Shown here piece by piece: positions 3,812-64,000 of a stretch of 64,000 bases of DNA. The stretch is taken from contig JBBHKE010001300.1 in the NCBI GenBank assembly GCA_037447655.1, positions 1 to 64,000 on the forward strand. Direction: 5' to 3'. The position numbers and the translations under genes were made by a program. Origin of the DNA: Zygnema cylindricum (taxonomy: Eukaryota > Streptophyta > Zygnematophyceae > Zygnematales > Zygnemataceae). The notes under the pieces were generated by a model that saw nothing but the letters and a program-made list of their open reading frames with translations, made no database searches and was not told the DNA's origin. Numbering within the stretch: the first letter of the stretch is position 1; every line of letters begins with the position of its first letter.

Positions 3812-4618
3812 TAATGCATTCACCGTGTCACTTCCCCTACGAAGCGCCAAAGTGCTTTCCCTCACAAGAATAATCCCCATGGTAAAGCTCCAAGTCCATG
3901 AGGAGCCATCCATTGCCTGCATACGACAAATGATGTTTTCGTACTCATCTGGAAGTTTCATAAGTATTGTATTAATCTTCCTCTCCTCAAATTCTACATA
4001 TCTCGCACTAGCAAGCTCAACATATAACGCAGCAATATCATTGCAAAACTCTATCATGTTACCACCTTTATAAACATATGCCTCTATTTCCTGTTTTACT
4101 AACTGCTGCCTTTGAATAGTCTCACTCTTATAAATCTGAATTAGTGCTTCCCATATCTTTGAAGACTTGGTTAGACTTAAAAGAGTGATAGCTATGGACT
4201 TAGACACATATCTAAGTATGAGATGTTTTGCTATAGTGTTTTTGTATTCCCATATTTTTCTGTCATTTTCCTCAGTTTTAATCCCTAAAAGTGGTACCAT
4301 ATCTGAGAGCCTAGCTCCCCTCACCATAGGTGTCCCTTTTTTCTTCTCCCCTATTTCCCCATCCACGGAAAGATTTTTCCCTTCACCTTCCGTTGCATGT
4401 GAACTCCGGTTGATATTCTGGACAGCCTTAGATGATTCTCCATAAAAGGCTCCTCCAAAGCCAGGTGGCGGACATCTCACTTGTCCCGAAACAATTCCCC
4501 ATAAGTGCTTCTCGAAAAGCAATCCCTCCATTGTAAACTCCCAATAAGTGAAATCTGTTCCAACGAACATAGGCACCTTAGATGGTGGGCCAATAACCTG
4601 AAACTCTGAGACCTCCAT
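3794..4618 (-). CDS. gag: N1 Gag polyprotein (274 codons, largely intact)
   Basis: The protein starts MEVSEFQVIGPPSKVPMF. The ATG at 4616-4618 is within the last 20 bases of the 5' LTR, and the frame passes through the primer site. It contains the copia gag (UBN2/DUF4219-like) core: WGIVSGQ near residue 35, an acidic/lysine linker, then WEYKNTIAKHLILRYVS and the helical IWEALIQIYKSETIQRQQL segment. It ends at a stop in the 33-bp repeats. A CFFCRE zinc-knuckle start lies further on in broken frame near 3600. Gag would form the virus-like particle. The longest gag frame in the window. Confidence 0.8.
   Translation of the reverse strand: MEVSEFQVIGPPSKVPMFVGTDFTYWEFTMEGLLFEKHLWGIVSGQVRCPPPGFGGAFYGESSKAVQNINRSSHATEGEGKNLSVDGEIGEKKKGTPMVRGARLSDMVPLLGIKTEENDRKIWEYKNTIAKHLILRYVSKSIAITLLSLTKSSKIWEALIQIYKSETIQRQQLVKQEIEAYVYKGGNMIEFCNDIAALYVELASARYVEFEERKINTILMKLPDEYENIICRMQAMDGSSWTWSFTMGIILVRESTLALRRGSDTVNALTAGGD
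4584..4598 (-). promoter_or_regulatory. Primer-binding site of N1
   Basis: The minus strand reads GGTTATTGGCCCACC, one change from the half-tRNA site of its relatives, and directly abuts the LTR end. Confidence 0.75.
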
Positions 4619-10663: not shown

Positions 10664-11830
10664 GGTTATGGGCCCACCCTCTAGGGTACCAATCTTTAAT
10701 GGAATTGGCTTCATATACTGGGAAAGTATGATGAAAGGAGCTCTATGCGAAAAAAGGTTTTGGGGGATAGTGAGTGGACGGTTGGGGCGTCCATCAAGTC
10801 TTGGAATTCCTCCACGCTTTGGAGGAAGCAGATTCACAAGAAAAGAGGATCCACCTTCAACGAAGGAAACAAAAAAAGGAGAGGTGGTGGACAAAGGAAA
10901 GGAGAAGGAGGCGACCACACTAATAACAACTAGTTCGGCATTCATGTCACTTATTCCGAGGAACGAGGAGAATGATACTGAAACCTGGAACTTCAACAAT
11001 ATGGCGTTAAGCACTTCATCCTACGGTATCTCACCCAAGGACTTGCATGTCCTCATTTGCAGGTAGAAAAGGCATCTGATCTTTGGATGGCTCTCATAGA
11101 GATGTACCGAAGTGGTACGATTCAGCAACAACAGTTGGCTGATCAGAAAGTTAATTAGTATATATACAAAGGGGGGAAGATGTTGGATTTTTGCATTGAG
11201 CTTGCTACACTCTTCATGGAGCTAGAGAGTGCGGGAAAAGATTTTAGTGAAAAAGAAAAGGTTAACTGTTTACTGATGAAGTTACCCGATGAGTTGGAGA
11301 ACATAGTCAACCTTGTGCAGGACTTGCCAGACTTAAGGTGGATATGGAACTCACTGGTAGGGATGAATCTCGTTCGGAAGAATACGATTGAGATCCGAAA
11401 GGGAGGAAAGAGTGGCCAAGCCTTGGCAACAACGACCGATTGGAGGAACAAGGATTCCCGGAAACCGGTCGGAAACAATGGGGGGAGGGAGCAAAAAAAT
11501 AAGACCTACGAGTTAGGACCAAGGGCTCCCAAAGGTTTATGTCATTTTTGTAAGAAACCTAGGCACTATATTGCAGAGTGCACTAAGCTAACCGAGCTTC
11601 GGTTAAAGAAGGGGCAGACCGGTGGTATCTTGAGAGGAAAGAAAAAGGCCCTTGTGACACAGGTACATGAGGCGGAATCCGAGGACGTGGACGATGAGCT
11701 CCTTTTAGATGAGGAGTTGGAGGCGAAAAACCAGGTCGAAATACCACGAAGGCAAAAATGTGCTTACGGTGGATTGAAAGGTGAAGCAGGCTGGATTGTA
11801 GATTCTGGTGCCTCCATGCACGTGAAAGGA
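10644..11830 (+). pseudogene. gag: Element C gag
   Basis: The ATG at 10644 lies in the last 20 bases of the LTR, and the frame (MEVSQFQVMGPPSRVPIF) runs through the primer site. The N-terminal part ends near 11066 by frame change. The middle part resumes at 11180 (LDFCIELATLFMELESAG). The zinc knuckle CHFCKKPRHYIAEC is near 11537-11580. The run to the protease motif WIVDSGASMHV (about 11790) is open, then breaks at 11831. Confidence 0.85.
10664..10678 (+). promoter_or_regulatory. Primer-binding site of C (exact half-tRNA match)
   Basis: GGTTATGGGCCCACC is the exact complement of a 15-base segment across the anticodon arm of plant-type initiator tRNA-Met and directly follows the LTR. Confidence 0.85.
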
Positions 11831-11834
11831 TAGG

Positions 11835-13340
11835 CACCTGTTCACTAAGATAAGAAATATTCCCACCGTAGAGATAGAGTACGCGGATGGGAGGATAGTC
11901 ACTAGTACTCTTGTAGGATGGGTAGATTTGAAAGTGTTAGTAGAAGGAAAGACATCCATAGTAACATTCTCCGATGTATTGTTTAATCCGGAGCTGAACA
12001 AAAACCTCATCTCTACATTCGTATTAGATGATAAGGGTTTTTTTACTAGCACTAGGGAAGGAGTCTTTACTGGTAGTTTTGAGGAGGATGTCTATTTCAT
12101 TGCTGAGAAAGGTAGCCATAAAATGTTAAGGCTGGTTTTAAGTAATGAAAAGAAGAAACTTTAGTATACTGGTGTTCATGATATTATGATGTGGCATAAG
12201 AGGCTTGGGCATGTGAATCTAGACAAGTTAAGAGAGATGAAAAAGATGGGAGTGGTGGAAGGGATTAAGTTTAGTGAGAATGATAATATAAGTGATTGTA
12301 GTGGATGTGCTCAAGGTAAAACACACATATTACCCTTTCCTAAAACAACCACCTATAAGGGAGAAAAAATTCTAGATCTATTACACACAGATATTTGGGG
12401 ACCAGCTAAAGTGCCCTCACCGGGAGGGAAGAGATTTATGATGACTATCACTGATGATTGGTCTCGGTATTCCGAAGTTTTTTTTTTGAAAAACAAGTCC
12501 GAAGCTCAGGATTGTTTTAGACTATATAAAGCATGGAGCGAAAAACTACATGAAACCCCAATCAAGAGAATAAGGAGGGACAATGGTGGAGAGTATACTT
12601 CTAACCAGTTTGAGGATTTTCTGAGGAAAGATGGGGTCCAACACCAAAAGACAATTCCAAAAAACCCGAAACAGAATGGGGTAGCTGAAAGGTTAAATAG
12701 AACACTAAGTGATAGTGCTAGAAGTATGTTGTCAGATAAGAAAATAGGAAAAAGGTTTTGGGCAGAAGCAATGAACTGTGCTAATTACCTCAAAAATAGA
12801 GTTTTTACTTCAGCTATAAAAGATTAAACACCTTATGAGAGATGGACAGGCCGGAAACCAGACTTATCTCACTTAAAGGTTTTTGGCAGTGAAGTATTTA
12901 GTCTAGATACAAATCGGTCTAATTGGAAGCTAGATCCTAAAGGAAAACCGGGATACTTATTTGGATATGATGAGGATGTTAAAGGATATAGAGTTTATGA
13001 TCTAAAAAGGGAAGATATAATCTTAGTAAAGCATCTAGTAGTTATGGATGAAGGAAAGTCTGTGGATCCCTTCAAATATACAAAGTCAGTAAAAATCAGA
13101 TTTGAGTCAGAAAATTCCGATGACTTTGAGCTCCCTAACTATCCAGGTTTTAGAGAAGATGACATTCTTGCAAATAAAAATCAAACCGAAAAGGACTCGG
13201 CTGTGGAAACTCAAGTGACAACTCTACCCAAAGCGGAAGACGTGGTGGAAGTTGATTCATAATCAAGGGATAGGGGAGAAGCCGAGTTTGTTCGAAAGAA
13301 TCTACGAGAACCATCTATTCAGGCCTCAGATTTTGAGGGG
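11835..13340 (+). pseudogene. pol: Element C protease remainder and integrase
   Basis: The protease tail (RNIPTVEIEY-like, VEGKTSIVTFSDVLF) leads to an open integrase frame at 12186-12827. It shows the HHCC finger (WHKRLGHVN, CSGCAQGKTHILPFP) and DDE-core words HTDIWGPAKV, DDWSRYSEVF, RRDNGGEYTSNQF and QNGVAERLNRTL. TAA at 12825-12827 replaces the CAA seen in F. The C-terminal part (13044-13262) ends in TAA where F has GAA. Confidence 0.85.
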
Positions 13341-13676
13341 GGAAGGAGAAGTAGCAAAAGACTACAAGAAAAACAGGTTAATAACAAGGTAACTAAACTA
13401 TCTCCTCAAGATGAACCTTAAACTTATGGAGAGGCGATGACTTGTCCAGAAAGAAATCGGTGGAAGACAGCCATCAATGAGGAGATGGCCTCAATTATAG
13501 CAGCCGATACTTTGGAGCTGGTGGATTGTCCACCTAACCGAATACCAATCGGTTGTAAGTGGATTTTCAAATTAAAAGTGAACCCAGATAACACAATCGA
13601 GCGCTACAAGGCCCGACTAGTGGCAAAGGGATTTACACAAAAGAAGGGAATTGACTATGAAGAAAACTTTGCCCCA
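13341..13676 (+). pseudogene. pol: Element C reverse transcriptase start, truncated
   Basis: From 13437 the frame encodes the RT N-terminus (RWKTAINEEMASI, GCKWIFKLKVNPDNTIERYKARLVAKGFTQKKGIDYEE), as in F at 33656. A TAA at 13419-13421 just upstream is CAA in F. Homology to F stops at the CCCCAG near 13672-13677, and the sequence becomes element B in the opposite sense. Confidence 0.85.
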
Positions 13677-14330
13677 GCTTCTTCATTTCCCTCAGTCTAT
13701 CAAAATGCACATGTCCAAAACGCTTTTGCCAGATCATCAAGCTCGGAACACCACCATAGTAAGCACTCTTCTTTTCATTACTCAGGTTAAGCCTAAACAC
13801 TTATTGGCTACCCTTATCTATTGTGAATTATACTTCATCTCTAAACTTAGTTGTAAAGACTCCGTTTCTACTGAAGGTATCGAAATCCTTGTCATCTAAT
13901 ACAACTGTAAACACAAGATTCTTACTCAACTGAGGAATGTAGAGCACATATGAGAAGGTAAGAAAAGAAGTCTTACCCTCCACTAAGACTTTCAGATCTA
14001 CTGATCCCACTAGATCTGTGGTAACTACTCTCCCATCCCTATACTTTATTTCCACAGTAGGGATCTTTCTTAGCTTAGTGAAGAGGTGCCTGTCTCGACA
14101 CATATGTATGGATGCACCTGAGTCGATGATCCATCCCTCCTCTGGTGCTCCCGAATGGCTCCAAAGGCACACTTTTGTTTCGAAGGGATCTCCTTCTCCT
14201 CTAGATTCTCGTCAAGAAAAAGCTCCCCATCCTCCTCGGAGGACCCGTCCTGCTCGGTCTCTCCTTTCACTCGTGTGACCACAAGTGCTTTTTTCTTCCC
14301 TCCGAAAGAACCACCTCCATGATTTTCTTG
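13677..14330 (-). pseudogene. pol: Element B protease and integrase N-terminus
   Basis: On the minus strand, the protease motif GWIIDSGASIHMC is near 14105-14145, followed by KIPTVEIKYRDGRVVTTDL and VLYIPQLSKNLV. The start of the integrase finger (GHVHFD near 13700) follows. It is cut at the junction with C. Confidence 0.8.
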
Positions 14331-32114: not shown

Positions 32115-32118
32115 AACC
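32104..32118 (-). promoter_or_regulatory. Primer-binding site of E (exact half-tRNA match)
   Basis: Minus strand GGTTATGGGCCCACC directly after the LTR. Confidence 0.85.
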
Positions 32119-32522
32119 TGAAATTCAAGGGCTCTATTCCCCCAAAGTAATCGCAGATCCAAAGAAGATTATCTATGTATTACCGACTACAAGTTTATAC
32201 AAACCCAAATGACAAACACCCTGATAGTCAAAACCCCAATACAGCTTCACCTTTGTGAAAGAAGACTTTCTGTGTGCTCAGTTCCCCCACAGAATACAAA
32301 GTTAGAATATGAGTATTTGGGCAAATTCCCCCACTTTGACTTTCCCTTATAAATGCCGCCACCTTGGCTGGCAAAAACTCTGACTGACTACATTCATGTG
32401 TAGCGTGGGCTCTCCTAAGTTCTGAGCAAATGAATCACTGAATTTCCTCCCTTGAGCAGCTAGTTATGGCAAGCCAAAGATGGCTTATAAATACAAAAGC
32501 ACTCTAGAGAGAGGTGGCTACC
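32119..32522 (-). repeat. 5' LTR of E, inner part
   Basis: Matches the inner third of the N1 LTR. Interrupted after CTACC (32518-32522) by the TRIM-F composite. Continues at 36284 and 37488. Confidence 0.85.
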
Positions 32523-32751
32523 TGTTGATTTCCGTGAAATCCGGGATTTGGTATGTCCCATACTAGGGAAAAGTGAGCCGGCCAGGGCTCGAACCTGAGA
32601 CCTCTGACTTGAGCTATCAGCGCACTAACCACTGTGCCACCAGCTCGATGTAGAGCCTGGCGGGTCCGTACCTATTTATTTTAGGCGGCTTCGAGTGTGA
32701 TGTATCACATTCTACCCCGTATTGAACCGGCATTCACGTGCCAATCCAACA
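32523..32751 (-). repeat. TRIM 3' LTR (complete, 229 bp)
   Basis: Perfect 5-base inverted ends TGTTG/CAACA. It includes the tRNA-like block 32575-32646. Confidence 0.85.
32575..32646 (-). other. tRNA-like cloverleaf in the TRIM LTR (copy 1)
   Basis: The 72-base minus-strand block folds as a tRNA. Acceptor GAGCTGG/CCGGCTC (7 pairs, one G-T). D arm GCAC/GTGC. Anticodon arm CTGAT/GTCAG with a 7-base loop AGCTCAA. Variable region of seven, and T arm TCAGG/TTCGAGC/CCTGG. A box TGGCACAGTGG (32629-32639) and B box GGTTCGAGCCC (32585-32595) match the Pol III consensus, and TTTT follows two bases after the end. The loop lacks the universal U33, so a translating tRNA is unlikely. It is probably a tRNA-derived promoter. 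Confidence 0.8.
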
Positions 32752-32762
32752 CCCCCCCTCAC
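32752..32762 (-). promoter_or_regulatory. TRIM polypurine tract
   Basis: Minus strand GTGAGGGGGGG immediately before the 3' LTR, the plus-strand primer site of an LTR element. Confidence 0.75.
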
Positions 32763-32795
32763 GGGAAGGCCGGTCACACCATCCGCAATCCCGCT

Positions 32796-32808
32796 GGCTC
32801 CGATACCA
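32796..32808 (-). promoter_or_regulatory. TRIM primer-binding site (initiator tRNA-Met 3' end)
   Basis: Minus strand TGGTATCGGAGCC begins at the base next to the 5' LTR. Element L uses the same TGGTATCGGAG word, so the host tRNA probably ends CTCCGATACCA. Confidence 0.8.
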
Positions 32809-33032
32809 TGTTGATTTCCGTGAAATCCGGGATTTGGTATGTCCCATACTAGGGAAAAGTGAGCCGGCCAGGGCTCGAACGTGAGACCTCTGACTTGAGC
32901 TGTCAGCGCACTAACCACTGTGCCACCAGCTCGATGTAGAGCCTGGCGGGTCCGTACCTATTTATTTTAGGCGGCTTCGAGTGTGATGTATCACATTCTA
33001 CCCCGTATTGAACCGGCATTCACGTGCCAATC
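32809..33032 (-). repeat. TRIM 5' LTR (lacks its terminal 5 bases)
   Basis: Matches 32523-32746 with about two differences. The expected terminal CAACA is replaced by copia F sequence starting TATAAAAGATC. Confidence 0.85.
32861..32932 (-). other. tRNA-like cloverleaf in the TRIM LTR (copy 2)
   Basis: Same fold as copy 1. The anticodon stem is fully paired here (CTGAC/GTCAG), whereas the B box has one change (the GG before TTCGAGCCC reads CG). Confidence 0.8.
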
Positions 33033-33600
33033 TATAAAAGATCAAACACCTTATGAGAGATGGACAGGCCGGAAACCAGACTTATCTCATTTAAAGGTTT
33101 TCGGCAGTCAAGTATTCAGTCTAGATACAGATCAGTCTAATCTGAAGATAGATCCTAAAGGAAAACCGGGATACTTATTAGGATATGATAAGGATGTTAA
33201 GGATATAGAGTTTATGATCTAAAAAGAGAAGATATAATCTTAGTAAAGCATCTAGTAGTTATGGATGAAGGAAAGTCTGTGGACCCCTTCAAATATACAA
33301 AGTCAGTAAAAATCAGATTTGGGTCAGAAAATTCTGATGACTTTGAGCTTCCTAACTATCCAAGTTTTAGAGACGATGACATTCTTGCAGGTACAAATCA
33401 GACTGAAAAGGACTCGGCTGTGGAAACTATAGTGACAACTCTACCCGAAGCGGAAGACGTGGTGGAAATTGATTCGGAATCAAGGGATCGGGGAGAAACC
33501 GAGTTTGTTTTCGAAAGAATCCACGAGAACCATCTATATCGGCCTCAGATTTTTAAGGGGTAAGGAGAAGTAGTAAAAGACTGCAAGAAAAATAGGTTAA
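33033..33600 (+). pseudogene. pol: Element F integrase C-terminus and linker
   Basis: Encodes TPYERWTGRKPDLSHLKVFGSQVFSLD, GKPGYLLGYDKDV and MDEGKSVDPFKYTKSVKIRF. One base is missing near 33201 (frameshift). In the linker a TAA replaces GAG and a TAG replaces CAG of C near 33552-33596. Confidence 0.85.
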
Positions 33601-33655
33601 TAACAAGGTAACAAAACTATCTCATCAAGATGAACCTCAAACTAATGGAGAGGCG

Positions 33656-35218
33656 ATGGCTTGTCCAGAAAGAAATCGGTGGAAGACAGCCATCAATGAA
33701 GAGATGGCCTCAATTATGGCAGCTGATACTTTGGAGCTGGTGGATTGTCCACCTAACCGAAAACCAATCGGTTGTAAGTGGGTTTTCAAATTAAAACTGA
33801 ACCCAGATAACACAATCGAGTGCTACAAGGCCCGACTAGTGGCAAAGGGATTTACACAAAAGGAGGGAATTGACTACGAGGAAACCTTTGCCCCGGTAGT
33901 CAGATTTCCCTCCGTCCGCATACTTCTCAGCCTGGCAGCAGCGGAAGACATGGAAGTGCAACAGATGGACATCAAAACAGCCTTTTTACATGGAGAATTG
34001 GAAGAGGAGATCTTCATGCGACAACCCGAAGGGTTTGTGGAAGAAGGAGAGGAGAGTAAGGTATGCCGGCTGATTAAATCTCTTTATAGTTTGAAACAGG
34101 CGCCTCGACACTGGAATAAGAAGCTTGATGAGTTTCTCACCGGTCTGGGATATATCCGGATCAGCTCAGATCACTCAATCTATGTTTTCGAAGATGAGGA
34201 AGGTTTTATATTTATTGCAATTTATGTTGATGATTTGCTTGTTTTAAGTAAATCAATGGAAAAAATTAATAAACTGAAAACCGATCTTAAGGGGGGATTT
34301 GAAATGAAGGATATGGGGGAAGCAAAATATATTTTGGGAATTCAAGTAGAGAGAGACCGAAAAAGAAAAATTCTAAGATTGACTCAAAAAGAAGCAATAG
34401 GGAACATGCTTGAAAAATTTCAAATGGATAAAGCTAATAGTTTTACAACTCCAATGGAATTGAAGAAGGGAAGTGAGGGGAGTGAGGAAGAAGGAGTCAT
34501 AGTCTTAGACGTGGAATTATCTCCTGAAGAACAGAAGTTCATGCAGACTATTCCTTACAGGCAAGTAGTGGGAAGTCTAATCTATTTTATGAATTGTACC
34601 CGGCTGGATTTAGCTGCAGCTGTAGGAGTGCTGAGTAGAAGTCTAAATGCTCCCACTAAGAAGGATTGGGAGGCAGCTAAGAGAGTTCTTAGATACTTGA
34701 TAGGAACTAGGGATCTATGGTTGCATTTGGGTGGGGAGAATACTGACATCACTACTTGGAGTGATGCTAGTTATGGTGATGCTCCGATGAGGAGATGCAC
34801 TTCTGGATATGTATTATATGTGGGTGATGGGGCTTGCTGTTGGAGTAGCAAACAGCAAAAGGTTATTGCTCAGTCCACCATGGAGGCTGAGTATATGGCC
34901 TCTTGCTCTGCTGTAAAGGAATTGATGTGGGTCAAGTCTTTACTTGGTGAACTTGGTCATCTTAAGAGTGGTGTGCAGAAAATATTTTGTGATAACCAAG
35001 CAGCAATCGCTATTTCTGCCAATCCTGCACATCATTTTAAAGCTAAACACATGGACATTAGACTCAACTTTTTTAGAGAGAAAGTAGATAATAAAATAAT
35101 CAGTTTAGAGTACCGACCATTTAGTGAGATAGTAGCAGATATGATGACCAAACCTATGCCTTCCCCTAAGCTAATTTTCTGCAGGGAGAAGTGTGGTCTG
35201 AAATTAAAGATTGACTAG
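33656..35218 (+). CDS. pol: Element F reverse transcriptase-RNase H (520 codons, open)
   Basis: An uninterrupted copia RT/RNase H segment. RT N-terminus RWKTAINEEMASIMAADTLELVDCP, GCKWVFKLKLNPDNTIECYKARLVAKGFTQKEGIDYEETFAPVV split over two blocks, QMDIKTAFLHGELEEEIFMRQPEGF, SLKQAPRHWNKKLDEF, and catalytic IYVDDLLVLSKS near residue 205. RNase H has TTWSDASYGDAP near 385, EAEYMAS, CDNQAAIAIS and KAKHMDIRLNFFREKV. It ends ten bases before the purine tract. The ATG at 33656 is internal to the polyprotein and is not a true start. The enzyme copies element RNA into cDNA in virus-like particles, but without gag, protease and integrase this copy cannot move alone. Confidence 0.9.
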   Translation: MACPERNRWKTAINEEMASIMAADTLELVDCPPNRKPIGCKWVFKLKLNPDNTIECYKARLVAKGFTQKEGIDYEETFAPVVRFPSVRILLSLAAAEDMEVQQMDIKTAFLHGELEEEIFMRQPEGFVEEGEESKVCRLIKSLYSLKQAPRHWNKKLDEFLTGLGYIRISSDHSIYVFEDEEGFIFIAIYVDDLLVLSKSMEKINKLKTDLKGGFEMKDMGEAKYILGIQVERDRKRKILRLTQKEAIGNMLEKFQMDKANSFTTPMELKKGSEGSEEEGVIVLDVELSPEEQKFMQTIPYRQVVGSLIYFMNCTRLDLAAAVGVLSRSLNAPTKKDWEAAKRVLRYLIGTRDLWLHLGGENTDITTWSDASYGDAPMRRCTSGYVLYVGDGACCWSSKQQKVIAQSTMEAEYMASCSAVKELMWVKSLLGELGHLKSGVQKIFCDNQAAIAISANPAHHFKAKHMDIRLNFFREKVDNKIISLEYRPFSEIVADMMTKPMPSPKLIFCREKCGLKLKID

Positions 35219-53902: not shown

Positions 53903-54584
53903 TGATAGGAATAAGAGTCAATTGGAATGGGCTCACAAATACTTAAATGTCTCAATGCAAAAGCGATATTAAAATGAAATCAAACATCAAAACACATCGA
54001 AAGCGCATAATCCAAGATAGAGAGAAATTGAATACTCAATAAAATAAACTCATATTAACTCAATTCTTAAACATTACATTTTTTTTAATTTATTCCTCCT
54101 TAATTGACTCTTGATTGATTCCTAATTATTATTTCTAACTCACACGATGGCTTTTAAACTAAGTCCTGGAAACAATCTAGAACACTAACTCTAACTCTAG
54201 AAGTGTCTAAATGTACTTAGACGTATATGTGGTACAAAACAAAATGAAACTACTAGAAGCCAAACTGACAGTCCTATACGACAAACTTAACTTATGCGAA
54301 ACGAACATACTAGATGTACGTCGCGCGAAATGAAACTTCCCGAAGTACAAATCTAGAACTTGACCGAAACGAAACAAAACAAATGTAATTGTGTACACGT
54401 GAAAAGTACACGCACGAAATAATACATCAAACTAAACGAAACCAAAACCGAATCCGTAAACCGTCGCACGGAGTACTAAATGAAACCAAACTAAATACGC
54501 GAAGTGACGCAAGACCAAAACTAAACCACACTTAAACCGAACCAACGTTACGTAAACATAGATTCAATATTGTAATTCGTAACA
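53903..54584 (-). repeat. 3' LTR of L
   Basis: Matches 59366-60042. Followed by the complement of a purine tract (ATCCCCCTCTCAATATTG). Confidence 0.9.
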
Positions 54585-54771
54585 ATCCCCCTCTCAATAT
54601 TGAATCTATACTAAATCTTAACTAGACTAAAAACAATCCTAACTTATGCTTTCCTCTCACAAATACTTCATACATAACAGCTTTAGTTAACATGTCAGCT
54701 GCTTCTTCACCCGTTGCCACAAAAATGAACTCAATCTTACCAGCATTTACTAAATCTCTCACAAAATGCCA

Positions 54772-55206
54772 CTAAATCCTAATGTGCTTAGTCCTCTTAT
54801 GAAACACGGGATTCTTAGCCAATGCAATGCTAGACATACTATATGAAAATAACTTCATACACTTAATGACAATTCGCAACTCACTTAACATTTCTCTTAA
54901 CCAAATTGAAGCTTTGACAGCATGGCAAGCCGCCATATATTCGACCTCTATCGAACTCAAGGCCACTGTAAGTTGAAGTCTCGAACTCCAAGAAGTTGCA
55001 CCTCCACATAAAACAAAAGCATAACCGGATGTTGACTTTTCCGTGTCAAAGTCTCCACCCCAATCGGAATCACAATATCCAAAACAATCTAACTCTGAAT
55101 CCGCCTTATAAACTAAACCATAACTTAAAGTTCCAACCAAATATCTAAAAATGCTTTTAACACTCTCCCAATGACACTTCGTAGGTGTTTGACAATACTT
55201 ACTCAC
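54772..55206 (-). pseudogene. pol: Element L RNase H
   Basis: Minus-strand open frame of 144 codons: KSIFRYLVGTLSYGLVY, DCFGYCDSDWGGDFD, TSGYAFVLCGGATSWSSRLQ, EVEYMAACHAVKASIWLREML and HKRTKHI. This is the copia RNase H typical of the HKRTKHID type. A stop near 54771 separates the last residues. Confidence 0.9.
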
Positions 55207-55251
55207 AATACTTACAACAGCTGAAATATCTGGTCTAGTTCCAATAATAAG

Positions 55252-56113
55252 TTACATGAAACAACCAACAGCTTCTCTATAAGGTACATCAATTGTTGGC
55301 TCACTTTTTGCTTTACTCAACTGAGCCCTAGGATCCAAAGGTGTACTCAAAGGCTTAGCATTCAACATAGAGAATCTAGCTAAGACTTCTTTACAATATT
55401 GTTCCTGACTAAGTTTCAAAGAACCAAACTCATCTCTAATCACCTCAATACCAAGAATGTACTTAGCGTCTCCTAAATCTGTAACTTTGAAGAATTTACT
55501 AAGAAAACATTTCAATTCATGAATCCTTTCAAGACTGTTTGAAATTATAATAAAATCATCAACATACACACTAAATATAATCTGATCAACTCCTTTTCCT
55601 TTCACATAAACACCTAAATCCGAAAATGTACGAACAAAGCCAAAATCCAAAAGTACCTTATGAAGACGAGTGTACCATGTTCTTGGTGCTTGCTTAAATC
55701 CATAAAGGGACTTCTTCAACTTCCACACCTATCCAGGTTTGCCAGAAACTCCTTCTGGAATCTTCATAAAAAAAAATTCTTCTAATTCTCCATTTAGAAA
55801 TGCGGTTTTCACATCCATTTGGTGGATATACTTCCTCTTAGCAGCAGTAATCGCAATAATCATCCTTAAATTATCAAACTTAACTACAGGTGCATATGTT
55901 TCTATATAATCTATACCTATCTATACCTTCTTTCTGTTGAAAACCTTTACCAACTAATCTTGCTTTATATTTGATAATTTCACTTGATGCACCCATCTTA
56001 GTCTTGAATACACATTTACAATCAATAGCTTTCTTTCCCTCTGGTAAAACTACTTCTTCAAATGTTCCATTATCAATAATAGACTTAAGCTCCTTCTCAA
56101 AGCTGGTTTCCAC
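55252..56113 (-). pseudogene. pol: Element L reverse transcriptase
   Basis: Frames 55880-56113 (IDCKCVFKTKMGASSEIIKYKARLVGKGFQQKEGID in two blocks) and 55252-55728 (KKSLYGFKQAPRTWYTRL, catalytic VYVDDFIIISNS, KVTDLGDAKYILGIEV). A frame change near 55730-55880 crosses the MDVKTAFLNGEL region. Confidence 0.85.
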
Positions 56114-56190
56114 TTTTCATTCCAATCACTTGATGCTTTAACTTCTGAATAGGACATAGGATTCCCATTCAGAGGCTCACTCAGTAATTA

Positions 56191-56634
56191 CTATAAAAAA
56201 AACTCATTTAATCTAGCATCTGAAATAAAATTGACCAACTTATCCTTAACATTCATGTGAAGAGTTAATCTCTCAATAGCCTTTCCTTTATTTGCTCGAT
56301 TACTTCTTCTAACAAAAATATCTTCTTCAACAACATCATCTCTCTCACCCTTCTCACTTACAAATGGCAAACTACATTCACTTCTTTGTTTGCTAAGGGA
56401 TCTTTCACTAGACTTAGAACTTTGACTTCCATTCTCACTTTTCAAGCTTTCAGAATCAGATTGGGAAGATTCAGATTTCTTACCAACTTTAACAGATTTC
56501 TTCTTTTTCAATGGAATTTCTTCATCCTGCGTTTCGTCACTTTCATTATCAATGTTGAACTCCTCCAAATTGCTCTCTTCCTCAAAATCCAAACATTCTT
56601 CTTTATCCTTTGTAAACTCCATTGCTTTCGCCAA
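56191..56634 (-). CDS. Element L integrase-RT linker (acidic/serine-rich)
   Basis: An open 147-codon frame rich in Glu, Ser and Lys (EEIPLKKKKSVKVGKKSE, SSERSLSKQRSECS) ending RRSNRANKGKAIERL. This matches the position of the variable linker before RT in copia polyproteins. It has no enzymatic motif. Confidence 0.7.
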   Translation of the reverse strand: MAKAMEFTKDKEECLDFEEESNLEEFNIDNESDETQDEEIPLKKKKSVKVGKKSESSQSDSESLKSENGSQSSKSSERSLSKQRSECSLPFVSEKGERDDVVEEDIFVRRSNRANKGKAIERLTLHMNVKDKLVNFISDARLNEFFL

Positions 56635-56639
56635 ATCTT

Positions 56640-58019
56640 CGTGAAACTACACATTCCTCGATTCGACAACCGTTCGAGTAGTTGGATTGAAGATCTTGTA
56701 TTGACTTGATATTGGACTATATCTAACAAAAATACCCGTCCAAGATCTGGGACTAAATTTCCAGCTCGATATCTTTTCTCGATGTTGACAGTGGCTTGGC
56801 ATTCTCAAATCCTCAAATGTCGAACAAATGAAACCATGCCACTCCACAATTCTTCAGGTGTCTTATCTCCAAAATCCGAAGTTAGTCTTTTGTTACAAAT
56901 GCAATTTGCTGTAAGAGCAACTTCTCCCCAAAACCTTACACTATGTTTATTGCTATGTAACGTAGCTCTTACCATCTCTTGAAGAGTCTTATTCTTTCTT
57001 TCAGCAGCTCAATTAGACTCAGGTGAGTATGCAACCGTAAATTGTTGCTTAATACCTCTTTTATGATAAAAGCTTTTAAAAGCAACAAATTCTCCTCCAT
57101 TATCTGATCTTACTGCTTTTAACTTTTTATGTGTTTCTCTCTCATCCATTACAACAAAATCTCGAAACTTATATAATGCCTCTGACTTATGTTTCAACAA
57201 ATACACCCAACTCTTTCGACTATAATCATCCACAATTACAAAGATATACTTATGTTGTCTTAGACTAACTGGTTTGACGTCTCCACTTAAGTCAACATGA
57301 ACAAGCTCAAGAAGAGCATCAGCTCTATACTTTACATCTTTTACAGGATGAAATTTTTTAATCTGTTTCCCTTTGCTACAACCGTTACAACCTTGAACTT
57401 TCTCTCCTGATACACACTCTAATCCTCTTACTACTACACTTTTCATCATTTGTTTTATATTAGACTTAGAAGTATGACAATGTCTATGATGCCATAAACT
57501 TAGATCTCCTCTTTCAAAACTTACAACATTAATTGAAATTACTGATTTCTGATTTTTCTGTGGTCTAATCCATTTTAACTTACTTTGCATACAATCAGTT
57601 ACATAACCTTCTCCAAGTTTACTTCCTTCTCCATCTTGGGAAACTATTATTCCATTTTCAAACGAGGTTACTCTACCACCATTCATTTGACTCTGAGGAA
57701 CACAGACAAGGTTTACATTTCCATCAAAAAAATACAAAGTATTGGTCAGATTCACTTTGTTTACAACAACTTTACCATTCATATTCTTAACAGGTAAATC
57801 TAAACTGAAAGTTCCCACTGTATCTATCGGAACAACATGTCCACTAGAAACCGTAATATTCTTAGGAACTATAAGCTTTCTCAAATCAGTAAACAAACTT
57901 AAATCACCACAAAGATGATGAGTTGCACTTGAATCAACTATCCAATCTTTATAACTTTGACTCCCACATGCAAAATTTGCTGAATTGACAACATCATTTT
58001 CATCTTCTTTCATCATCAA
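56640..58019 (-). pseudogene. pol: Element L protease and integrase
   Basis: The open frame 57009-58019 starts in protease. WIVDSSATHHLCGD has Ser in place of the Gly of the usual DSGATHH. The integrase finger is LSLWHHRHCHTSKSNIKQMMK with GCNGCSKGKQIKKF. The core has HVDLSGDVKPVS, DDYSRKSWVYLLKHKSEA and VRSDNGGEFVAFKSF, then YSPESN. A TGA where Gly is expected (near 57008) separates the AAERKNKTLQEMVRATL part. Confidence 0.85.
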
Positions 58020-58139
58020 AAAAAAGTTTAGAGACTTATCGCCTTGATCGTCATTAAAATCTGAATATTGGGTTTGATATCCTCTTCTACGTGATTGTCC
58101 AAATGTTCTAACACCTCGTCCTCGTTGTCTTTATCGACA

Positions 58140-59320
58140 TTTTCCTCTTTCCGAGTAGTAAGATGATCCTCCTCCATTTCGTTGAAAACACTGAGCACTA
58201 ACATGTCCCCATTTCCGACAAATGTTGCATTGCTTTTCCCTATCTGGACAGTTAGTAGCCATATGTCCTTCCTTATTACACTTAAAAAAAATAAAATGAC
58301 TTAGATCACCCTGATCAGTATAACCTCTTTCAAAACTTGAATACGGAAAGTTGTTTCTACCCCCTCTTGATCTAAATCTTCCTCTACCTCCACAACCACG
58401 TAGAGAATATACCTCAGACGTGTCAGTGAGGTTACATTACTATTTCCAAATCCTTACCATCTTTCTCTTTACTCTTTTCTGCACCTTTTAGAAAGTTAAT
58501 AGCAAAATCAAAAGTGGGTTTCTCTGTAGATCTTATGATTTCAACGGTGACATCAAACTTAGATGGTAATGCATTTAGAAACACAAATGCTTTTTCATCT
58601 TCACGAGGAAACTTTCTTGCGCTATTCAACTGCTCTATCAATACATTAAATATTTTTAAAGCATCATCAATCGACTCATTACTTTTCATCCTAAACTGAA
58701 TAAAGTCTTGAAATACATAATTAGACTTAGTTGCAAATCCCTTCTCATACAAATTTTGTAGATGAGTCCAACAAGCATGAGCCGTATCATGAGTTAACAT
58801 ATGCTCATGAACTAAACTACTACTACTCTGAGTAATGCAGTCATAGCTGCCATATCTTTATCATCCCACTTTTTCCTTCCTTTTGCATCTAATGGTCTTT
58901 TCTCTTCTCCAGTAAGTATTTTCCACAATTTCTTTAAAGTAAAGGTTCCCTAAATATATCTCTTCCATACAGGATAATTATTTCCATTTAGCATGATAAT
59001 TTTAGAAAACACCTTATAATCTGACTCTTCATCTGAACTCCACTCATCATCATCATCATAAAAAAGTTATTTCATTTTGCCTTTTTTACTCTTCTTAGAA
59101 CTCTCATCATCTGAGTTGCCCCCAAAGGTAGGAGTTTTACCGAAATATTGTCCTTTTTTTTTTTGCTTTTAGAAATTCGTAAAGTTCCTCGATAGTCGTT
59201 AGATCAAACTGAATTGTGTGACTCTCCTTCGCCATTGATAACTTCTCCGATTCTCCAACTCCAAAACTTACTTCAGTGTCTTCTTCCTTTGCCAAGTATT
59301 CCTCAACCATAATTTATAAA
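58140..59320 (-). pseudogene. gag: Element L gag with zinc knuckles
   Basis: Gag N-terminus from about 59310 (MVEEYLAKEEDTEVSFG), then NGNNYPVWKRYI, and the UBN2-like helical part in open frame 58432-58800 (CWTHLQNLYEKGFATKSNYVFQ, DEKAFVFLNALPSKFDV). Two zinc knuckles lie near 58180-58290. CNICRKWGHVSAQC is intact, while the upstream one (KCNKEGHMATNC) lacks its first Cys. Several stops. Confidence 0.8.
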
Positions 59321-59350
59321 CTCTCAATTCTTACTCAATTCTTAAATGAA

Positions 59351-59363
59351 ATCTCCGATACCA
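59351..59363 (-). promoter_or_regulatory. Primer-binding site of L (initiator tRNA-Met 3' end)
   Basis: Minus strand TGGTATCGGAGAT, two bases from the LTR end. It shares the G at position 8 with the TRIM site. Confidence 0.8.
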
Positions 59364-59365
59364 AT

Positions 59366-60042
59366 TGATAGGAATAAGAGTCAATCAGAATGCGCTCATA
59401 AATACTTAAATGTCTCAATGCGAAAGCGATATTAAAATGAAATCAAACATTATAACACATCGAAAGCGCATAATCCAAGATAAAGAGAAATTGAATACTC
59501 AATAAAATAAACTCATATTAACTCAATTCTTAAACATTACATTTTTTTTAATTTATTCCTCCTTAATTGACTCTTGATTGATTCCTAATTATTATTTCTA
59601 ACTCACACGATGGCTTTTAAACTAAGTCCTGGAAACAATCTAGAACACTAACTCTAGAAGTGTCTAAATGTACTTAGACGTATATGTGGTACAAAACAAA
59701 ATGAAACTACAAGAAGCAAAACAGACAGTCCTATACGAAAAACTTAACTTATGCGAAACGAACATACTAAATGTACGTCGCGCGAAATAAAACTTCCCGA
59801 AGTACAAATGTAGAACTTGACCTAAACGAAACAGAACAAATGTAATTGTGTACAAGTGAAAAGTACACGCACGAAATAATGCATCAAACTAAACGAAACC
59901 AAAACCGAATCCGTAAACCGTCGCACGGAGTACTAAATGAAACCAAACTAAATTCGCGAAGTGACGCGAGACCAAAACTAAACCACACTAAAAATGAACC
60001 AACGTTACGTAAACATAGATTCAAAAATTGTATATCGTAACA
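59366..60042 (-). repeat. 5' LTR of L
   Basis: 677 bases matching 53903-54584, with a handful of differences and a short deletion near 59650. Confidence 0.9.
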
Positions 60043-60789: not shown

Positions 60790-61250
60790 TTGATTGTCCT
60801 TAAGAGAATAGACCTCAATATCACCAACAGTGTTGAACCGTTTAGTGGCTCATGCCTCACACTCGGACTCTTAACCGATTCTAATTCATATTCTCAAAAT
60901 ATTTTGGTCAAAGTGGGCAACAAGGGGCCCTCAAATGCTTACGTTGTAACTGTGAGAAGTGTCATAACTAGTGTGGTACCCGTAAACGGAGACTCTTCTT
61001 GTTTCTCAATCAATTCCACAGCCATCCAGTGTGAGGCATCTTTCCAAGGCCCTTTGGCTCCCAAAGCAATTCGTTCATTTCGCTTTGGAGTAGCCTTTCC
61101 GATTGGCCGTCGCCGCCTCAATCAAATACAAGAGGAGTTCAAGTTTCAACCACTCTATTAGTGGATTACTCTCGCTACAATGAAGAAGAGATACTATCAA
61201 GTGACTTTGCTGCTTCGAGTACTTTTTGCACAATTGCCGCTAGCGAGTGA
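60790..61250 (+). pseudogene. DUF11-like module (continuation of exon 6)
   Basis: LIVLKRIDLNITNSVEP, QNILVKVGNKGPSNAYVVTV, SCFSINSTAIQCEASFQGPLAP match the DUF11 repeat pattern (NxGPS.A..V.V, C, G.L). From about 61104 the frame changes to PQSNTRGVQVSTTLLVDYSR, and it ends near AASE at about 61245, probably followed by an intron to 61871 in which nothing else is seen. Confidence 0.6.
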
Positions 61251-61871
61251 ATTTGCAATCACATGTTATCGTATATCGAATATCCACTTATTATTTCTTT
61301 GAAAGAATATTGTACAAAATTTCAAGAACCTAAAGGAGCAAAAGATATGCATCAGAGTCTGTGTACCATCTTTGTTTTTTACTCTCTCATTTTTCCCCTC
61401 ACTTCTCTCGTATGTATTTTATAAATGTGTCTTCTCTCATGTTGTTCCTTTGTCCACCTTATTTTTCTTTGGGGTTTCCACAACGCAAGTTTATCCATTG
61501 AACTTTTTCATAATATACCACATTTTTCTCACTTTAAATTTTACAATGTCGATATTTTGGCAATGTTTCTTTGACTTTTTCTCTCAAGACTTCGTTTTGC
61601 TTTCTTCCAATCCATCCAATTGCCACCCGCGTTTTGCATTCTCATTGTGCATTAATTTCCATCTTCCAAATTTCTAGTATGTGCTATGTTGCTCATGATA
61701 TTTTTCATACCTTGATTACCTATGCTCACTTTTAACTTTAATAAGACGCCAAATAGAAATATTGATTTAATTTGGTGTTGTTTAGACTAGTTCTGACGAG
61801 CATATTAATGGTTTCACCAAAGGATTATAAAATTTAAATATTTTTTACCGCACCGTGTTTGGATTTTCCAG

Positions 61872-62390
61872 TATATCCACCACCTCCCAATCCACCACCA
61901 AGTCCACCTCCCTCACCTCCCTCTTTTCCACCACCTTCAAGCCTGCCTCCCTCTCCTCTGCCTAGTCCTCCTCCACCACCTAGTCCTCCCCTGTTACCTC
62001 CTGCCTAGTCCTCCTCCACCACCTAGTCCTCCCCTGTTACCTCCTCCTAGACCTCCTCCTCGCCCCCCTCTGTCTTTGCCCCCACGTCCACCTCTTTTCC
62101 CTCCTCCCCTGAATCCTCCAACATAACCTCCTCCACGACCTTCTCCTCGAAGTCCACCTACTTCTCCTCCGCCATCCCCACCTCCATCTCCTCCTCCCCA
62201 TCTACCTCCCTCTCCTCCTCGATCGCCTCCTCCTCCCCCTCCATCACCATCCCCTCCACCATCACCCTCTCTTCCCCCACCTCCTCCAAGTCCTCCACCA
62301 TCTCCTCCTCCACCTCCACCTTCTCCTCCTCCTTGTAGTCCTCCGCCCTCTCCCCCTCTCCCCCCTATCTTGTTTTCCGTCTTGGGTTTC
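61872..62390 (+). pseudogene. Polyproline (PPPSPP-rich) linker exon
   Basis: Acceptor TTTTCCAG, then about 170 codons almost entirely Pro with Ser, Leu and Arg, resembling hydroxyproline-rich matrix proteins. A 43-bp tandem duplication (61962-62004 and 62005-62047) shifts the frame. Removing one unit makes the upstream and downstream frames continuous. A TAA at 62124-62126 interrupts the downstream frame. The minus strand gives an artefactual Gly-rich frame. Confidence 0.7.
61962..62047. repeat. 43-bp tandem duplication in the polyproline exon
   Basis: Two adjacent copies, nearly identical (one base differs at the end). 43 is not a multiple of 3, so the duplication is frameshifting. Confidence 0.85.
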
Positions 62391-62726
62391 TCTCCACCTT
62401 CTATCATCACTATTGGAGGACTCATCACCATAATTGTTCGTGGATTTTATTCCACCACAATTTATATGTGTCTTGCGAATGGGGTACAAATAAGACAAGC
62501 TACTTTTATTTCTTTCAACTCTCTTATATGCAATTTTACGAGCGGAACTACTAGAAATTCCGTTACGATTAAAATTTCGGCGCTTTTTCTGGGAATTTTT
62601 GCCTCTAACCGTTTAAAATACTATGGACCTTGTGCGAGAGCTCTTTCCTGTTCCCGAAAAAGAGTTTGTAGCGCAGGAGTTTGTATCTGTTCCGCAACTT
62701 TTTACTCGGACAATTGTAGTGTCTAA
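62391..62726 (+). pseudogene. TIG/IPT-like and EGF-like modules
   Basis: In frame with the polyproline segment: PPSIITIGGLITIIVRGFYS, CLANGVQIRQATF and ICNFTSG follow the TIG/IPT pattern (P.I..I....GG..ITI.G..F, C, C). Then CARALSCSRKRVCSAGVCIC and YSDNCSV, six-cysteine EGF-like spacing. TAA at 62724-62726 separates it from the next module, which continues in the same frame. Confidence 0.6.
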
Positions 62727-63590
62727 TTGATTCCTCCAGTTATTTCCACATTAGGGATTCCTGGAAGGGACACCACTATTACTGTGTCATCTGGTACATA
62801 TTACACTATTTTCCCAAAAATAGAAAGTGGGACAACTCCTATTCAATGGAGACTTAGTTATGCCCCATTAGGAATAACAATTGATGAATTGACAGGTGTC
62901 ATTTGCTGGAGGGTTGTAGCCAGTACAAGACAAACTGTACCAGTTGTACTTGTCGTAGTAAATGCCATTGGATCTGATGTTTACACGTGGCAAGTTGTGG
63001 TTCCAATTGCGTACACGGCTACAGTAAGGATTCAAGGCACAAAACGTCTTTTTCCCTATGCTCAACGGATATCGTATTTCGGTACAGCTTCTCTAGTCTT
63101 ACCTCTTTGTTCGGTGCTATTAGATCGCCAGTAAATATTTTTATAACTTCATCGAACAACGAACTGCAAAATGTGATCTCAACGATCACTACGGATACAA
63201 ACGGAAAATTTCAAGGGATTTTCGACCCTATCACAACAATGGCAGGAACATTTAATATCTTTTCCGGACACCCGAGTGATTTGAGCTACCTTGCACAGAA
63301 TAGTGTTCCGGAAGACACCTTTAATTTTCTAGGCTTGTTTGCCAAACTCGCCTTTCCAACTGTCCAGTACGAAGGATCCGGGCTTCTTTTGAAGATTCTA
63401 ACTAATTTCACCTCAGTTATAACAAGTTTTGCCACTATCACAAACACTGGAGGTTTAGATGTGACAGGTGTCACAGTTACTGTGAGAATGGCCCAATGGT
63501 CTGGAATTCTAGCCACAACCTCTATTGAAAAATCCGCATTGGGAGCAAGTGAATCAACAAATATTAATTTCACATTAATTCCGGGTTAAA
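62727..63590 (+). pseudogene. He_PIG-like and following Ig-like modules
   Basis: IPPVISTLGIPGRDTTITVSSG, APLGITIDELTGVICWRV and VNAIGSDVYTWQVVV match the putative-Ig (He_PIG) pattern PxGL.ID..TG.I.W. A frameshift near 63085 leads to SLFGAIRSPVNIFI, TTDTNGKFQGIFDPI and AGTFNIFSGHPSD, a carboxypeptidase-regulatory-like fold candidate, then VITSFATITNTGGLDVTGVTV, an adhesion-type beta sandwich. A second frameshift lies near 63580. Confidence 0.6.
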
Positions 63591-63860
63591 CTTAACTATC
63601 TTGGGTCCCCAAGCGACAACTCTATATTTGAGTTCTAACGAGGGTATAAACGCCTCTCTCTCTTTTTCAGTGAAAGTCAAAGCCCCTTCTCTCCAAGTGT
63701 TTGCGAGTCCTTTGTATCTATCCGGCTCTGGTTTAGCTGGTTCAGAATTAACTTTTGACGTCTCTATTTCCAATGTCGCTTTACTCGGGTATTCACCAAC
63801 TATTCCACTTTCTATCACTCCCACAAGTTCCATTTTCACTTTTGCCACACCTTCACTTCT
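63591..63860 (+). pseudogene. C-terminal beta-sandwich module, cut by a copia fragment
   Basis: LNLTILGPQATTLYLSSNEGINASLSFSVK in two blocks, then GSGLAGSELTFDVSISNVA and PTIPLSITPTSS resemble repeats of the preceding module. Homology to a retroelement begins between about 63850 and 63870, so the native gene end is not in the window. Confidence 0.5.
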
Positions 63861-63861
63861 C

Positions 63862-64000
63862 GCACATATTCCACTGCAACTTTACTCAGTTTGCTAACAA
63901 CCTGCCTTCCTCCTTTGAGGATTACATCAAAGCCTTTGCTCTTTACCAAAGAAGTAGAAAATAGATTCTTTTTGAATTGTGGTACATATAACACATTGTG
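63862..64000 (-). mobile_element. Copia fragment (K-type protease-integrase region) at the right edge
   Basis: The minus strand encodes NVLYVPQFKKNLFSTSLVKS, KGFDVILKGGRQVVSK and KVAVE, matching K at about 26910-27030. No LTR separates it from the surface gene, so the junction is a deletion or truncation. Confidence 0.75.

Follow-up and report, generated by a model that had tools for sequence, protein, structure and literature searches.

A short LTR element of Zygnema cylindricum with a tRNA-derived block in each LTR, almost certainly of the Helenus type, and its candidate Pol III promoter

A pair of short direct repeats in Zygnema cylindricum, each enclosing a tRNA-like block, raises the question of what kind of element the repeats form and what the block does in it. 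The locus was analyzed within a stretch of 64,000 nucleotides of contig JBBHKE010001300.1 (assembly GCA_037447655.1), referred to here as the window. The repeats (32523-32746 and 32809-33032) are 224 nt each, 99% identical and spaced 286 nt apart. The element lies on the minus strand, with a 5' LTR at 33032-32809, a 57-bp internal region (32752-32808) and a 3' LTR at 32751-32523. The full LTR is 229 bp long and ends in TGTTG...CAACA; the 3' LTR is complete, while the right-hand copy, the 5' LTR, lacks the outer 5 bp with the TGTTG. The internal region starts with the primer binding site (PBS) TGGTATCGGAGCCAG (32794-32808) and ends with the polypurine tract GTGAGGGGGGG (32752-32762), which adjoins the 3' LTR. 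With two LTRs, a PBS, a polypurine tract, a total length of ∼515 bp and no coding capacity, the element is a TRIM, as a preliminary description had proposed. That description had also called it young, which in terms of divergence would fit the two differences in 224 positions between its LTRs (LTR positions 136 and 157, 1-based, both within the tRNA-like block).

No TSD was found at the borders of the window copy. On the left, the element adjoins the truncated 5' LTR of an abundant Copia element (32118-32522, minus strand; half-tRNA iMet PBS at 32118), which is interrupted after GGCTACC where its paralogues within the window run on as TACCCAAAA. On the right, the broken LTR is fused to the middle of the pol gene of another Copia copy (33033-33916, plus strand; 92% identical to 12814-13697), whose paralogue matches from 12814 onward, with a 1-bp microhomology at the broken end. 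We infer that a deletion after insertion, at this microhomology, took the outer 5 bp of the LTR together with neighboring DNA; the TSD is missing because one end of the element is broken. Copia elements account for 29.8% of the genome of Zygnema cf. cylindricum SAG 698-1a as given in PMC9915684, and the window is likewise rich in Copia.

The assembly (352,776,454 bases in 2689 contigs, 353 Mb) carries at least 70 loci of this family, comprising complete elements, single LTRs and tandem arrays. Similarity to the LTR gave 64 matches, with 40 of 905 candidates scored; the sampled loci are 38 found by LTR similarity, 31 found by a PBS 21-mer and the window copy, each of which matches the LTR at least in part. 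Exact 5-bp TSDs were found in 24 of the 39 elements that have at least two LTR matches and both outer ends, compared with 0.76 expected by shuffled pairing; three more agree at 4 of 5 bp, and 15 in all lack an exact TSD. The 39 elements include one insertion counted twice, L056 and L057 (C46:372844 and C46:379597), which lie ∼6.7 kb apart, share one LTR sequence and one TSD and represent a segmental or assembly duplicate. Single complete LTRs have exact TSDs in 6 of 18 cases and agree at 4 of 5 bp in three more; L031, L059 and L081 are preceded by a G-tract and are therefore ends of truncated elements. The internal region is 57 nt long in 44 cases. Three-LTR arrays (LTR-internal-LTR-internal-LTR) occur at L018, L078, L080 and L085, and the array at L030 has been heavily rearranged. 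The preliminary description had named paired LTRs, solo LTRs and 5-bp TSDs as the genomic marks of such an element, and all of these are present elsewhere in the genome. Across 34 two-LTR elements, LTR-LTR identity spans from 100% (three elements) down to 87.6%, and activity has therefore been prolonged and partly recent, in line with the recent activity previously proposed.

The tRNA-like block is 73 nt long and occupies positions 106-178 of each LTR, on the minus strand at 32932-32860 in the 5' LTR and 32646-32574 in the 3' LTR; the block had been placed correctly within the LTRs before, with a length of 72 bases and without the strand. ARAGORN called tRNA-Glu(CTC) in both window LTRs and a tRNA in none of 2000 dinucleotide shuffles of the LTR, which rules out chance tRNA-likeness. 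The Rfam tRNA model scored the 3' block at 49.3 bits and the 5' block at 41.0 bits (gathering threshold 29), the latter being unlisted in two whole-window Rfam scans. All four stems pair, with a single T-stem mismatch (pair 52:62) in the 5' copy. A fold other than the cloverleaf has the minimum energy, the cloverleaf being 6.6-7.4 kcal/mol worse (-25.1 vs -31.7 and -23.5 vs -30.9 kcal/mol), and plain folding energy barely beats that of shuffled sequence (z -1.96 and -1.38). Of the proposed comparison with shuffled sequence, the tRNA-model part thus came out clearly in favor and the folding-energy part did not; the claim of tRNA-likeness rests on tRNA-specific models, and folding energy by itself adds little to it. 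The A box in the window is TGGCACAGTGG, with an A where Y is usual and with YGG present, while the B box reads GGTTC in the 3' LTR and CGTTC in the 5' LTR, further variants occurring among the genome copies. A TTTT lies right behind each block (32855-32858 and 32569-32572), where it is a candidate Pol III terminator. The tRNA-derived block, its two boxes and the T4 were all found in each LTR as first described. Position 33 of tRNAs is generally U. The anticodon loop of the 3' block is AGCTCAA, with G in place of U33, and the block is therefore unlikely to be a working, translating tRNA. By eye, its end reads GGCTCA, compared with the GGCTCCGATACCA needed by the PBS. A SINE that inserted into the LTR might have left short repeats around the block, but only an unconvincing 5-bp match was found there. 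Among 20 fetched genome tRNA candidates and iMet, the best identity to the block was 66%, in a sample that lacks many isotypes (63 of 24620 candidates scored in an Rfam tRNA search of the same genome, 20 of the 63 fetched, mostly one per score class).

This arrangement is not a new kind, as tRNA-like sequences in the LTRs of TRIMs have been published as Helenus (Kojima, 2024, PMC10886601), where the term TRIMp3 covers Helenus, Cassandra and Ajax. Like Helenus, the element described here is a short TRIM with a tRNA-like sequence per LTR, an internal PBS and polypurine tract, 5-bp TSDs and a tRNA that is unlikely to be functional; the Helenus description gives 5-bp TSDs in fungi and plants, a box A of TRGCY...YGG and a box B of GGTTC in most families, and a tRNA-like block that is not complementary to the PBS (PMC10886601). 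The only plant host listed there is Selaginella moellendorffii, with the family Helenus-1_SMo, from which the present element differs in LTR length (229 vs 120 bp) and internal region (57 vs 85 bp), as compared by description rather than alignment; its A box is TGGCA where TRGCY is usual, and its host is probably an alga. It is almost certainly of the Helenus type, as a new Helenus family in a streptophyte alga and probably in a new host group, the zygnematophytes. The product of an EF-1alpha exon of the assembly is 93% identical to that of Closterium sp. NIES-64 and no more than 90% to any other among the best 120 of 8000 proteins, with 86% to Chara braunii and about 88-90% to many land plants; ranked by E-value, Lathyrus sativus (84%) came first. 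Searches with the Copia reverse transcriptase and integrase gave no host assignment, and no RuBisCO large subunit was found in the assembly. Literature searches of an open-access library listed no algal case of a TRIM with a tRNA block, and the words TRIM and Cassandra are absent from the main text of the Zygnema genome paper (PMC9915684). The analogy to Cassandra drawn beforehand was borne out: both have a sequence derived from a small RNA in their LTRs, as Pol III promoter in Cassandra and as candidate promoter in the alga, an iMet PBS (TGGTATCAGAGC in Cassandra, PMC7215508) and tandem arrays, which also resemble those reported for one Helenus. The LTR sequence of Cassandra is derived from 5S rRNA, whereas that of the present element is derived from tRNA, and Rfam scans of the window element gave only tRNA. 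Cassandra is given as the only validated Pol III TRIM, and Pol III transcription of Helenus itself is called unproven (PMC10886601); the Pol III promoter of the algal element is a candidate only. A predicted tRNA-derived Pol III promoter is also shared with tRNA-derived SINEs, which have no LTR or PBS and are mobilized by non-LTR elements (PMC10886601).

We therefore read the element as a Helenus-type TRIM with a proposed Pol III promoter in its tRNA block, and assign this explanation as a whole a probability of roughly 0.87. Pol III would bind the block of the 5' LTR at its A and B boxes and initiate just before it. Some transcription would end at the first TTTT, giving a tRNA-sized RNA, while the remainder would read through this leaky T4 and terminate at the TTTT of the 3' LTR. 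With a start at the block and a stop at the second T4, the block itself would therefore be the R repeat at both ends of the RNA and permit strand transfer, and Copia proteins would act in trans as helper. The block would now act as a promoter rather than as a tRNA in translation. Judged from sequence features, it is moderately likely that Pol III drives the element, and the chances that the block is R may be put slightly below even. The conserved A box and the T4 behind the block in 63 of 67 LTRs both count for the Pol III reading, yet a T4 in this place should often terminate Pol III before it has copied the element, which counts against this reading. One genome would allow tests of whether Pol III makes TRIMs with tRNA blocks and of how the PBS follows the primer tRNAs of the host.

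Conservation of the block was assessed in 67 complete genome LTRs, and pairing in the 53 distinct blocks among them. Of the 67 LTRs, 56 have a tRNA predicted by ARAGORN, in most cases Glu or Gln, a warning for annotators of tRNA genes. Nucleotide diversity was 0.087 in the block, 0.122 upstream and 0.111 downstream, the block ranking 22nd lowest of 157 windows of the diversity scan; no significant block-wide purifying selection was observed (Fisher p 0.22-0.51). The A box had a diversity of 0.041, compared with 0.122 in the 5' flank, and that of the B box (0.116) was not below the flanks. A run of at least four T directly followed the block in 63 LTRs. No other T4 run was present in 62 of the 67, which is unremarkable, as 544 of 1000 element shuffles have none at all. 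Within elements, 130 of 369 LTR-LTR mismatches fell inside the block, with 118 expected, and the block is thus unprotected after insertion. The cloverleaf was paired in 1049 of 1109 cells (94.6%), compared with 34-48% when the pairing scheme was slid along the sequence. Double changes that keep a pair occupied 26 cells in 5 of 21 pairs, compared with 1-5 cells when slid, and were reached by none of 1000 shuffles. Most of them trace to a single split, which sets apart subfamily II (11 distinct blocks, most with the loop AGCTGAA), in which pair 27:43 is changed from C-G to T-A and pair 29:41 from G-C to C-G. Subfamily I alone had 5 double-change cells, compared with 2.2 expected, a weak signal that 63 of 1000 shuffles reach. 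Stems were more variable than loops (0.105 vs 0.062), and of the 39 distinct blocks without gaps, 35 had G at position 33. Variation within the LTR is highest at about positions 44-79, where an AT-rich stretch is located, with CTAAAAGAAATAG in 23 and CTAAAATAAATAG in 16 of the 67 LTRs; in the window this stretch is TAAAATAAATA, 27-37 bp upstream of the block.

These data bear on other explanations of the element. A tandem duplication of a SINE or a tRNA gene could mimic an LTR element, and would fit both the tRNA score of the block and the window copy without TSD. However, the PBS and polypurine tract lie exactly at the LTR borders, 24 of 39 copies are flanked as complete units by TSDs, solo LTRs have TSDs of their own and the 57-nt internal region recurs in 44 cases; a duplicated SINE has a negligible probability and is ruled out by the TSDs, PBS and solo LTRs of the genome copies. 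The element is an LTR element that integrates in the LTR manner.

It appears unlikely that the element is an ordinary Pol II TRIM in which the block, left by an old insertion of a SINE or tRNA, is a passive passenger of the LTR. The AT-rich TAAAATAAATA upstream of the block, conservation of the block that is not significantly above that of the rest of the LTR, and the description of TRIMs other than Cassandra as Pol II elements (PMC10853983) agree with such an origin, but the AT-rich stretch sits where the LTR varies most, nearly all copies retain the A box and the T4, and the cloverleaf is preserved through pair swaps. The swaps would also be expected if the cloverleaf RNA itself were functional, as a tRNA-like RNA or a cutting tag for RNase P/Z, and were selected beyond the needs of a promoter: the 26 double-change cells exceed all 1000 shuffles and include the 27:43 and 29:41 swaps of subfamily II. 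That most double changes come from one split, that 63 of 1000 shuffles reach the 5 cells within subfamily I, that G33 prevails in a cloverleaf which is not the minimum-energy fold and that stems vary more than loops makes this function rather improbable.

For the Helenus-type element with a candidate Pol III promoter, the evidence on the primer is unusually good. The PBS is complementary over 15 nt to the 3' end of the host initiator tRNA-Met (acceptor ATCGGAG/CTCCGAT, CCA added). An iMet pattern gave 12 matches, 8 of them at tRNA-like places (L047-L054), and ARAGORN called tRNA-Met at six of these (L047-L052) and not at the degenerate L053 and L054, the gene listed within L054 being its neighbor L050. 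The host iMet genes, which are of the plant type, have three acceptor stem variants, ATCGGAG (L049, L052), ATCAGAG (L047, L048) and ATCAAAG (L050, L051 and the degenerate L053 and L054). In 54 PBSs, found with a pattern that held all other positions fixed, positions 8-9 were GG in 37, AG in 9, AA in 6, GC in 1 and TG in 1, and thus GG, AG or AA in 52. When only the 23 PBSs retrieved through LTR similarity alone are considered, position 8 varied in 5 and position 9 in 3, compared with 0-2 at each of the others. PBS states did not cluster on the LTR tree as built, with branch support unassessed (51 rows; 15 Fitch steps vs 15.3 when shuffled, 526 of 1000 at or below). LTR elements generally recopy the PBS from the primer tRNA. 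Since the PBS variants match the three iMet acceptor variants and scatter over the LTR tree, the PBS seems to be recopied from whichever iMet primed each round. The change from GG to AG falls at a CpG and could be decay, whereas AA is unreachable by CpG decay in one step.

No autonomous element with the same LTRs or internal region was found among the copies fetched. Exact pattern scans of viral and prokaryotic contig collections, as well as a plasmid search, gave no match. A Copia helper is quite likely. The candidate type is represented by an autonomous-type, frame-broken Copia (53903-60042, minus strand) whose PBS (59363-59353) begins with TGGTATCGGAG; it has no LTR similarity to the TRIM. 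It is the likelier kind of helper because its PBS starts with TGGTATCGGAG, while a half-tRNA PBS, GGTTATGGGCCCACC, complementary to the iMet anticodon arm, is found in the commoner Copia family of the window. A fuller reading, in which the cloverleaf block of the TRIM would at the same time be its Pol III promoter, its R repeat and a structured RNA whose fold is under selection, with a PBS rewritten in each round from one of several iMet isodecoders, is improbable as a whole; if it were true, every copy would record which tRNA gene product primed it.

The half-tRNA PBS of the commoner Copia was observed at 10664 (plus strand), 32118 and 23064 (both minus) and, with one mismatch, at 4598 (minus). 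Three of these copies (10664, 23064 and 4598) have an ATG 20 nt ahead of the PBS, and in two (10664 and 4598) the gag frame crosses the PBS; Copia gag therefore seems to start inside the LTR. Lone 5' halves of tRNA-iMet (nt 1-39) occur elsewhere in the genome at L086 (C741) and L087 (C2151), with partial ones at L088 and L089, and the bases after the half at L087 resemble a Copia LTR end of the window. These halves are possibly fossils of a half-tRNA primer copied into DNA. Further along the window, 60790-63900 (plus strand) represents exons or remains of a gene for a large protein that is rich in proline and looks secreted; its EGF- and Ig-like matches are weak and below the cutoff, and an in-frame stop at 62724 reflects an intron or decay.
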